In this document: positions 2,847-47,706 of the stretch, one piece after another
How the letters are laid out: every line of letters begins with the position of its first letter
Position numbering within the stretch: the first letter of the stretch is position 1
Source: an uncultured Alphaproteobacteria bacterium
Lineage (GTDB): Bacteria > Pseudomonadota > Alphaproteobacteria > Rhizobiales > Aestuariivirgaceae
DNA: 64,000 bases
Direction: 5' to 3'
NCBI GenBank assembly: GCA_937872985.1
Contig: CALMUW010000086.1
Span: 1-64,000, forward strand
Translations under genes and position numbers: made by a program
Notes under the pieces: generated by a model
Told to the model about the DNA's origin: nothing
Database searches by the model: none
What the model saw: only the letters and a program-made list of their open reading frames with translations

Positions 2847-2855
2847 TTATTTCCT

Positions 2856-3238
2856 TCAAAGCTTGCGCTTCGAGCCGCTGTCGCGGCTCTCAACGTGCGC
2901 TTTGAAGATGTCATTGGTTCTCAAGCCCAAAGCCAAAGCCTGCGCTTCGAGCCGCTGTCGCGGCTCTCAACGTGCGCTTTGAAGATGTCATTGGTTCTCA
3001 AGCCCAAAGCCAAAGCCTGCGCTTCGAGCCTCTGTCGCGGCTCTCAACGCGCCCTTTGAAGATGTCATTGGTTTTCAAGCCCAAAGCCAAAGCCTGCGCT
3101 TCGAGCCGCTGTCGCGGCTCTCAACCTGCGCTTTGAAGATGTCATTGGTTCTCAAGCTCAAGCCAAAGCCTGCGCTTCGAGCCTCTGTCGCGGCTCTCAA
3201 CGTGCGCTTTGAAGATGTCCTTGGTTCTCCTCTTAAGC
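2856..3238. repeat. Tandem array of five 77-bp palindromic repeats
   Basis: Copies begin at 2864, 2941, 3018, 3095 and 3171, so the period is 77, 77, 77 and 76 bp. Each unit has a strong hairpin, GAGCCGC-TGTC-GCGGCTC, flanked by partly complementary arms (TTCAAAGC...GCTTTGAA for the first copy), then an AT-richer stretch and a short CCAAAGCCAAAGCC motif. Copies 3 and 5 carry GCCTC instead of GCCGC, weakening the stem. The period is not a multiple of three, so it is not a protein repeat. The array fills the gap between tRNA-Arg and xylB; no gene is seen in it. It resembles a REP/BIME-type palindrome cluster. Confidence 0.9.
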
Positions 3239-10740: not shown

Positions 10741-10835
10741 GGGGCAAACCTCTTGGCCCCGACGTTAGGTAAAGAGCCTGACAGCCACAAGGGCAGGCGC
10801 AAACAAAAGAGCCGGAAGCTGGGCTCCCCGCTCGA

Positions 10836-10946
10836 GCGCAACGGACGATCAAATCGGAACGATTTGAGAGAGAAAGTTGCGCCAACATATTGATTTTCGA
10901 GCAACCTATCGGCGGCAGTTGATTCCAACTGACCGCCGGTTGCTCG
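10836..10946 (+). repeat. Dispersed ~111-bp stem-loop element, copy 1
   Basis: This intergenic segment is repeated at 46753-46865 in the same orientation with about four differences. It holds three inverted repeats: CAAATCG/CGATTTG (10850-10866), GTTGC/GCAAC (10876-10905) and GGCGG-CAGTTG/CAACTG-A-CCGCC (10911-10937). The ends are themselves inverted (CTCGAGCGCAAC at 10831-10842 and GTTGCTCGAG at 10939-10948). It lies between the gcrA stop and the hydrolase start. There is no coding potential beyond short shadow frames. It looks like a MITE- or REP-like element. Confidence 0.9.
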
Positions 10947-10967
10947 AGGGTCATGACCGTGTGCGTC

Positions 10968-11495
10968 TCAGGCGCTGCGGCGCTGGCGGCGGTCCTGCAC
11001 CGGCTGATAGGCCATGCGGGCGTGATACTCGCAATAGGGCGAGCCTTCACGCGGGTTGTGGCCGCAGAAGCAGAAGTCCTCGTTGCCGGGATCGCCGATG
11101 GGCCATTTGCAGGTCTTGTCGGAGAGATGAAGAATGGTGATGCGGCCATCCTTGGGCAGGTCGAGGAGGCGGAGCGGCTTGGGCTCCGGCAGGGCCTCCA
11201 GGCGCGGCGCGGCCTCGGGGCGGGTGTAGGATTTCAGCGCCGCCGAGCCGGACGACGGCATGGAGGGGCCGGCGGCGGGACGGCCGGGGTGGCTCGGCTC
11301 GCGCGTCTTGCGCGGGGCACGCGGCGCGGTTGAACGCGGCTGGGTGACCCGGCCCGAGAGGTTGAGGCGATGCACCTTGCCGATGACGGCATTGCGCGTG
11401 ACGCCGGCGCCGAGGCGGAGCGCGATCTGGCTGGCGGAGAGACCATCGTCCCACAGCTTCTTGAGCAGTTCGACCCGCTCCTCGGTCCAGGGCAT
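10968..11495 (-). CDS. gcrA: GcrA-family cell-cycle regulator
   Basis: A 175-aa DNA-binding cell-cycle regulator confined to Alphaproteobacteria; in Caulobacter GcrA acts with sigma70 at promoters carrying CcrM-methylated GANTC sites. The N-terminal helix-turn-helix domain MPWTEERVELLKKLWDDG and GVTRNAVIGKVHRLNLSGR is diagnostic, a Pro/Arg-rich linker follows, and the C-terminal sigma-interacting region CKWPIGDPG...CFCG...YCEYHARMAY is conserved. The start at 11495 matches family length; a GTG at 11534 with an AGGGA upstream is an alternative that would add 13 residues. The upstream region contains candidate DnaA and CtrA sites. Confidence 0.95.
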   Translation of the reverse strand: MPWTEERVELLKKLWDDGLSASQIALRLGAGVTRNAVIGKVHRLNLSGRVTQPRSTAPRAPRKTREPSHPGRPAAGPSMPSSGSAALKSYTRPEAAPRLEALPEPKPLRLLDLPKDGRITILHLSDKTCKWPIGDPGNEDFCFCGHNPREGSPYCEYHARMAYQPVQDRRQRRSA

Positions 11496-45809: not shown

Positions 45810-46753
45810 GCGCGTTCCTCATCGTTGCCCCCACCTGGCCTGCCGATGTCTGGCGCACGGCCATGGCGGAGGCCGCTCCCGACCACGACATCAGGGTCTG
45901 GCCGGAGGTTGGCGCGGTGGCGGACATTCACTATGTCGGGGCCTGGCTGCCCCCGGCCCATGCGCTGGCTGGCCTGCCCCATCTCAAGGTGATCTTTTCA
46001 CTGGGTGCCGGGGTTGATGCCATTCTGCGCGATGACACCCTGCCCCGGGATGTTCCGCTGGTGCGGGTCAATGATGCCGACCTCACCATGCGCATGGGCG
46101 AATACATCATGCTCCATGTGTTGCTGCATCACCGCCAGCAGCGACGGCTCGATGAAAACCAGCGCAACAAGGTGTGGGACAGTTTTGCCACCCATGCCGC
46201 GAGCGACTTGCGCATTGGCGTGATGGGCTTGGGGGTTCTGGGGGCCGATGCGGCCCGCAAGCTCGCGGTCATGGGCTTTCCCGTGGCCGGCTGGAGCCGC
46301 ACGCGCAAGGACATTCCCGGCATCGAGAGTTTTGCCGGGCCGGATGAGTTCGACGGCTTTCTGGCGCGCAGCGATGTGCTGGTGTCGCTTTTGCCCGCCA
46401 CGCCGGAGACCACGGGCATCATTAATCATGGCATGCTGCGCAAGCTGGCGCGCACCGGCCCCTTTGGCGCGCCCATTCTGATCAATGCCGGGCGCGGCCG
46501 CCAGCAGGTGGAGGCCGACATCCTGCGGGCACTCGACGACGGCACCCTCCATGGCGCGAGCCTTGATGTTTTCCAGACGGAACCGCTGCCCAAGGAGTCG
46601 CCCCTGTGGAGCCATCCGAAGGTCATCGTGACCCCGCATGCGGCAGCGGACTCCGATCCCGCCGCGATCTGCCGCTACATCGCGGGGCAGATGGCGCGTT
46701 TTGAACGCGGCGCGGAATTGCAGAATGTGGTGGACCGGAGCCGCGGCTATTAG
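45806..46753 (+). CDS. ghrA: Glyoxylate/hydroxypyruvate reductase A (D-2-hydroxyacid dehydrogenase)
   Basis: A 315-aa NAD(P)H-dependent enzyme that reduces glyoxylate and hydroxypyruvate. The Rossmann loop GVMGLGVLGADAARKL (~residues 139-154), NAGRGRQQVEADIL and the catalytic Arg, Glu (DVFQTEPLP) and His (VTPHAAADSDP) are present. The ATG overlaps the yejF stop by ATGA, so expression is tied to the peptide transporter. The final base of its TAG stop is the first base of the 111-bp repeat. Confidence 0.9.
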
Positions 46754-46865
46754 CGCAACTGACGATCAAATCGGAACGATTTGAGAGAGAAAAAGTTGCG
46801 CCAACATATTGATTTTCGAGCAACTTATCGGCGGCAGTTGATTCCAACTGACCGCCGGTTGCTCT
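46753..46865 (+). repeat. Dispersed ~111-bp stem-loop element, copy 2
   Basis: Nearly identical to 10836-10946 (two extra A, one C-to-T change, end differences) with the same three stem-loops. It exactly fills the space between the ghrA stop (46751-46753) and the NlpC/P60 stop (46864-46866), two convergent genes. It holds no gene. A terminator role for both sides is plausible but lacks a clear U run. Confidence 0.9.
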
Positions 46866-47706
46866 AGAGCCGCTTGACGGATGTGACCGGCTTGCCGGAA
46901 GCGGCGATGCGCTTGACCGCCTCGGCCAGCGGCTCGCTTGCGACCAGCATGTGGTGGCCGTTGGCATGGAGCAGCATGGTCGCGTCGGTCATGATGCCGA
47001 CATGGCCATCCCAGAAGACGAGATCGCCGCGCTGCAGACCCGTGCGGTCATTCTGCGGCAGGCTGCGGCCCAATTCCTTCTCCTGCATGTCGCTGTCGCG
47101 CGGGGCGCGTTTGCCGCAAGACTGCAGCGCCACCTGCACCAGCCCTGAACAGTCAAGGCCATGGACGGTCTTGCCGCCCCAGAGATAGGGCGTGCCGAGG
47201 AACTGTTCCGCCACCGCCACGAAGTCGTGGTGATGTTCCGTGAGCGGACGAAGGTGCGCCGAAAAAACATAACCGCCGCTGGCCAGCGCGGCATAGGCAC
47301 CGTCGGTGCCGGTTACCGTCACCCCGGCATTGAGCGGCAGGAAGCGGTGCGGCGTGGTCTTGAGGTTGGCCTGGGGATAAATGAGCGTCGCGGGCACGGC
47401 GACATGATGGGTGGGCGCCAGCGCCACGGGTGCGAGAGCGGCCACCGGCACATGCCCGACATAACCATCGCGCGTCAACTGGGCCCAGGCAAAACCGTCC
47501 TTCACCGCGAAGACCTGCAACGTCTCACCGAAGAGAGCTTCGGTCAACTGCATGGCGTCGGCTTGCGGTTCCTTTCGCAGCGGTGCGGCAAAGACCTTCA
47601 CCTGCATGGTGACGCCGGGTTCAAAACGGGCGGCCGCCACCCTGCCCTTCAGGCGCGCATCAGCAAGGTCGGCGCGGGCCGCATGAAGCCGTGGGTCCAG
47701 CGCCAT
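46864..47706 (-). CDS. NlpC/P60 family peptidoglycan hydrolase with SH3 domains
   Basis: A 280-aa cysteine peptidase. The N-terminal part (about 30-150) resembles two bacterial SH3-like domains (MQVKVFAAPLRKEP, GYVGHVPVAAL); the C-terminal NlpC/P60 domain has the Cys in GLDCSGLVQVAL (~residue 187), the His in DGHVGIMTD (~237) and HANGHHM. Such enzymes cut D-Glu-meso-DAP bonds or their amides in murein peptides. No signal peptide is visible, so it may act on recycled muropeptides in the cytoplasm. It follows the MarR gene with a 2-bp gap. Confidence 0.9.
   Translation of the reverse strand: MALDPRLHAARADLADARLKGRVAAARFEPGVTMQVKVFAAPLRKEPQADAMQLTEALFGETLQVFAVKDGFAWAQLTRDGYVGHVPVAALAPVALAPTHHVAVPATLIYPQANLKTTPHRFLPLNAGVTVTGTDGAYAALASGGYVFSAHLRPLTEHHHDFVAVAEQFLGTPYLWGGKTVHGLDCSGLVQVALQSCGKRAPRDSDMQEKELGRSLPQNDRTGLQRGDLVFWDGHVGIMTDATMLLHANGHHMLVASEPLAEAVKRIAASGKPVTSVKRL

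Follow-up and report, generated by a model that had tools for sequence, protein, structure and literature searches.

The short sequence that occurs twice in the window, the 64,000-nt stretch of alphaproteobacterial DNA analysed here, is most probably (about 85%) a non-autonomous mini-transposon (MITE) of the IS630/Tc1-mariner type, which consists of two hairpins and a linker and would be moved in trans by an IS630 transposase. A MITE-like element was one option of the first-pass annotation, next to a REP-type palindrome and a structured RNA, and it is supported by tens of copies, intergenic sites, the duplication of a dinucleotide, an unoccupied target site and ends in common with IS630 elements.

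The two copies have the same orientation, as had been described, and are 96% identical across 110 bases. Both lie where they had been placed, and the alignment of copies now sets their exact limits at 10836-10945 and 46753-46864 (Table 1). The sequence had been read as three stem-loops. All the named inverted repeats are present, but the anatomy is that of two long hairpins, each of ~48 nt, with a 16-nt linker between them. CAAATCG/CGATTTG makes up the inner portion of hairpin 1 and GGCGG..CCGCC that of hairpin 2, whose full inner stem is CGGCGGCAGTTG/CAACTG-A-CCGCCG, and GTTGC/GCAAC forms the outer arms of the hairpins. The GATTC that had been assigned to a loop was indeed found within the loop of the second hairpin. 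When folded as RNA, the element reached -55.5 kcal/mol, compared to -27.8 kcal/mol for shuffled sequences (z = -7.8), and none of 200 shuffles was equally stable. The opposite strand gave z = -8.1.

Table 1. Positions of the element and its parts in the window
Feature	Position	Strand	Remarks
Copy 1, double-hairpin element, 110 bp	10836..10945	+	between gcrA 3' end and gcrA's terminator-like hairpin
Hairpin 1 of copy 1	10836..10882	+	outer arm GCGCAAC...GTTGCGC; inner stem TCAAATCG/CGATTTGA; from fold and alignment
Linker of copy 1, CAACATATTGATTTTC	10883..10898	+	complement contains AATCAATATGTTG, which fits the IHF consensus WATCAANNNNTTR exactly
Hairpin 2 of copy 1	10899..10945	+	outer arm GAGCAAC...GTTGCTC; GANTC in loop
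Left flank of copy 1, GA	10834..10835	.	apparent 2-bp duplication, atypical target
Right flank of copy 1, GA	10946..10947	.	
Copy 2, 112 bp	46753..46864	+	between two convergent genes
Left duplicated target TA, copy 2	46751..46752	.	upstream gene ends in a TAG stop (46751-46753) made of this TA and the initial G of the element
Right duplicated target TA, copy 2	46865..46866	.	downstream gene ends in a TAG stop (46864-46866, minus) made of this TA and the final base of the element

The genome that contains the window comprises 2.65 Mb in 120 contigs, a fragmentation which suggests that it originates from a metagenome assembly. A search of this genome returned about 50 copies: the core of hairpin 1 gave 51 matches with at most two mismatches, and BLAST with the element gave 41. 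Since about 50 copies are present and not two, the number is far above chance and the notion of a single local duplication is ruled out. The copies are 97.9% identical to their consensus. Several contigs terminate within or next to a copy, and the true copy number is therefore probably higher than counted. The relative G009 carries a distinct version that shares 81% identity with the window family and reaches 98-100% within G009. G014, the closest relative (75-83% protein identity), showed no DNA match to the window family. Such a distribution is what separate recent bursts would leave. Plasmid and phage collections contained no match to the element. When a degenerate 23-base pattern was searched in 84,980 genomes, the only genome with the family was that of Hyphomicrobiales bacterium RU_4_15, apparently the same as G009; a few single matches in cyanobacteria and Bacteroidetes were near the chance expectation.

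The first-pass annotation had proposed a search for flanking target duplications, and these were found. Identical dinucleotides flank 29 of 38 copies (8% expected at random); in 26 they are TA/TA, and 15 copies have the flanks CTA-GCGC...GCTC-TAG. Minority flanks are TG/TG in two copies and GA/GA in one, which is copy 1 of the window, and nine copies are without identical dinucleotides. The insertion of copy 2 could be followed in relatives. The filled site in its own genome reads GCGGCTC-TA-[112 bp]-TA-ATAGCC, whereas the empty sites have a single TA (GCGGTTC-TA-ATAGCC in G034 and GCGGCTT-TA-ATAGCC in G008), in which the convergent stop codons of the two genes overlap. In G014, the same site after the NlpC/P60 gene (L093) holds a different, degenerate short hairpin element that is also bounded by TA, which suggests that this stop-codon TA is a repeated target. 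Copy 1 is absent from the orthologous gcrA-peptidase interval of G014, between gcrA and the terminator-like hairpin. Duplication of a TA target is a trait of IS630/Tc1-mariner transposition (PMC2170065), and the TA duplication together with the empty site is the mark of such an event. For IS630, the preference for CTAG was described by Tenzen and Ohtsubo (1991), as cited in PMC2170065.

The gene context was determined for 28 copies that had enough flanking sequence, using a simple codon-based gene caller. All 28 were outside genes, in line with the intergenic placement that had been named as a mark of a repeat family. Convergent genes surround 15 of them and tandem genes 13, and none lies between divergent genes. 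The 49 background intervals of the window include 9 convergent, 31 tandem and 9 divergent ones, and the convergent excess (15/28 against 9/49) is significant (Fisher P = 0.002). At 14 ends, belonging to 12 copies, the neighbouring gene ends with a TAG stop that consists of the TA and the terminal G of the element. Copy 2 gives both of its neighbours their stops, a 2-hydroxyacid dehydrogenase-like gene and the NlpC/P60 gene.

The partner of the element was sought among the IS630 transposases (PF13358), which were found in 19 of the 37 genus genomes. In this genus, IS630 elements span 1049-1056 bp and have the ends TA-GAGC..., and the ends of one subgroup (G005, G018, G024 and G036) resemble GAGCATCGGATGGTCAATTGAATC. 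The MITE family, with 110-112 bp, many copies and no transposase gene, was compared to them by its ends GCGCAACGGACGATCAAATC and GAGCAACCGGCGGTCAGTTG. The right end shares 16 of 20 bases with the IS630 ends of G005 and G024 (P = 5e-5 for the best of 22 with shuffled sequences), and the left end at best 14 of 20 among the 22 IS630 ends (shuffled P = 0.002). One IS630 end in the own genome, TA-GCGCATCGGATGGTCAATTGAATC, was found at a contig end (C119:3-59), where it adjoins a MITE copy across a common TA and matches the left end of the MITE at 15 of 20 bases. The other end of an IS630 of this subgroup is located at a second contig end (C104:8-53). No complete matching IS630 was recovered from the own genome: both ends are at contig ends and the body is unassembled, and an intact partner transposase is therefore inferred. 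Such a complete partner would carry the ends GAGCATCGGATGGTCGAGG.../GCGCATCGGATGGTCAATTG....

The only transposase found in the own genome, on contig C48, belongs to another IS630 subgroup. As a partner of the MITE it was rejected, with its ends matching those of the MITE at only 5-10 of 20 bases; it may fit a second family better. This B-type double-hairpin family of the own genome is ~101 bp long (GAGCAACCTGACTTTTGACGG... / GAGCGG..., for example L146:54-155 on G000:C104) and has about 45 complete or almost complete copies, whose ends resemble those of the C48 IS630 more when compared by eye. B-type copies sometimes adjoin A-type copies across a common TA. Head-to-tail tandems of the two types were observed at G000:C40:5888-6194, C87:68443-68644, C25:142-344, C78:2182-2382 and C118:23-227, without exception in one and the same orientation, an arrangement that would not be predicted from random re-insertion at the common TA. 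Another repeat is found in the window at 2853-3229, directly after a tRNA-Arg(acg) gene (2770-2846), where five 77-bp units with 94% matches stand in tandem, each with an internal hairpin-like GAGCCGC..GCGGCTC.

The search was extended beyond the window family with a covariance model, R1, that was built from 12 representatives. The plan of two arms plus linker was detected with it in 22 of the 37 genus genomes, with differing stems. Ten genus genomes had at least 28-99 matches, since the number of candidates was capped, although a palindromic copy may match once per strand. Across 289 genomes sampled from the whole class, the plan was found in 8 other alphaproteobacterial genera. The stems covary, which the first-pass annotation had expected of a repeat family: 18 of 33 pairs were changed on both sides. 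In the alignment 96.8% of the cells were paired, compared to 84.9% after shuffling, a value that is flattered for the outer stem as some members came from a search that demanded inverted arms; none of 500 shuffles was as good and slid controls were far lower.

The strong covariation of both stems, the very stable fold and the sites at convergent gene ends, immediately past stop codons, would also be expected of a structured RNA or 3'-end element. According to this explanation the element spread by transposition and is kept because, when transcribed at a gene end, it terminates transcripts, protects them or undergoes cleavage by RNase III, as has been reported for the neisserial Correia/NEMIS. 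We consider this rather unlikely. Palindromes covary as well if their arms matter as DNA, the hairpins are not followed by a T-run, and the same placement would be left by selection against harmful insertions. The Rfam covariance models gave no match to the element, even at a relaxed threshold, and the near-identical copies and the empty orthologous site fit recent mobility. As judged from the covarying stems, a structured RNA could still arise as a by-product of a mobile element.

Three features recur among 26 representatives. TA adjoins 40 of the 52 ends, the linker has 14-17 nt, and an excess of unpaired bases, a bulge of 3-4 nt, is located on the inner arm in 49 of the 52 hairpins and never on the outer arm. 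Since the outer arms are the IS630-like repeats, the bulge sits in their inverted copy. The IHF consensus WATCAANNNNTTR (from PMC5896051) is matched exactly on the complement of the linker in the window family and in G009a and on the linker itself in G026. Over 28 linkers, 51 mismatches to the consensus were counted, compared to a mean of 92 (sd 4) after shuffling, a difference that does not give the probability of a function because the consensus is weak and the test is inflated by the common descent of the linkers. The gene for IHF-alpha is present in the own genome, with a score above the curated cut-off.

Many intergenic copies with two imperfect, bulged palindromes could also point to a REP/BIME-like element, in which a Y1 transposase (RAYT/IS200-type) acts on single-stranded hairpins. 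BIMEs are imperfect palindromes with bulges and carry IHF sites. However, no match to the Y1 transposase domain (PF01797, Y1_Tnp) was found in the own genome, and the REP-type palindrome of the first-pass annotation is therefore not supported. IS200/IS605 transposition is not known to make a target duplication, whereas here a clear two-base duplication and a precise empty TA site are observed. This makes a REP-type origin very improbable.

Among known systems, the CIR repeats of Caulobacter (CcrM-associated intergenic repeats; Chen and Shapiro 2003) have the same plan, as far as they are described in PMC2229807. They are intergenic, ~110 bp long, with two inverted-repeat arms and a linker, and have a GANTC at or in a terminal loop. 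The window element is likewise ~110 bp long, intergenic, alphaproteobacterial and made of two arms and a linker, a likeness to CIR by description, and all 38 of its copies have a GANTC in a terminal loop. How CIR repeats move was described as unknown and needing more information (PMC2229807), whereas the TA duplication, the empty site and the IS630-like ends point to a mover here; by analogy, this suggests that IS630 may also move other repeats of the CIR plan.

The conserved GANTC, exposed in a loop, could itself be the selected function of a cell-cycle methylation element (CcrM/GcrA), as speculated for CIR. The site is intact in all 38 copies, with N being T or G, and a loop of many relatives carries it. 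Copy 1 is located directly past the stop codon of gcrA (window 10968-11495, minus), which encodes the regulator reading GANTC methylation. Against this, one gcrA-adjacent copy among 50 is weak and the neighbourhood is probably a coincidence, while G004 and several others are without GANTC. In addition, most IS630 ends of the genus have GAAT(C) at positions 20-24, and since this is the same place, the GANTC may be part of the terminal repeat. A methylation element is thus quite unlikely, and a control of the transposition by methylation is conceivable.

RUP of Streptococcus pneumoniae is an intergenic repeat of 107 bp with IS630-like ends and TA targets (PMC2229807). The window element is as short and intergenic, with the same kind of ends and target, but neither a double-hairpin plan nor an IHF site or another motif is reported for RUP in PMC2229807. 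The Correia/NEMIS elements of Neisseria have 100-155 bp, TA ends, an IHF site within the longer form and a hairpin RNA (PMC2229807, PMC10969869). TA at the ends, an IHF-like site and a hairpin fold are found here as well; a Correia element folds end to end into one structure, whereas the two ends of the window element fold separately, with the IHF-like site in the middle, between the hairpins. The TA duplication, the CTAG preference and the short terminal inverted repeats are as in IS630/ISY100 (Tc1/mariner), but the window element has no gene and its arms are palindromic, in contrast to those of the genus IS630 elements. Bru-RS of the alphaproteobacterium Brucella are palindromic intergenic repeats of 103-105 bp (PMC2267715) and resemble the window element by description as short palindromic intergenic repeats of an alphaproteobacterial host. 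Judged by target, ends and anatomy, the window element would work like a RUP-like element, moved by IS630 into TA, with a Correia-like IHF site.

Based on these results, the MITE would move as follows. An IS630 transposase supplied in trans would recognise ~20 bp at the outer end of each hairpin, a stretch similar to the IS630 terminal repeats, excise the element and integrate it at a TA, with a preference for CTAG, so that it is flanked by TA on both sides. Both ends start with G, so insertion into a TA would always recreate TAG, and the reading frame stays properly ended when a stop codon is hit. Copies would then remain at gene ends through this rebuilding and through selection against the disruption of genes and promoters. 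Terminal hairpins like those of the MITE are absent from the genus IS630 elements, and end recognition alone thus does not explain the palindromic arms. Each hairpin consists of the outer repeat and then an imperfect inverted copy of that repeat, and the bulge of 3-4 nt on the inner arm probably stops this inner copy from serving as an end. The linker probably binds IHF, which would bend the two arms together. Tentatively, and as a possibility rather than an expectation, the CIR-like two-arm repeats of the alphaproteobacteria may form one superfamily moved by IS630, whose palindromic ends, fixed inner-arm bulge and IHF-bent linker fold into a two-hairpin transposition complex; this MITE architecture would be new to IS630 elements.

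Copies of the element supply stop codons to adjoining genes. They also appear to break assemblies, with many contigs of the own genome ending in or beside one. For a widespread class of intergenic repeats in the alphaproteobacteria, the spread of which was previously described as unexplained, IS630 transposition with TA duplication is offered as the mechanism of mobility. The covariance model and three rules, TA flanks, an inner-arm bulge and an IHF-like linker, allow the annotation of such repeats and avoid mistaking them for regulatory RNAs.
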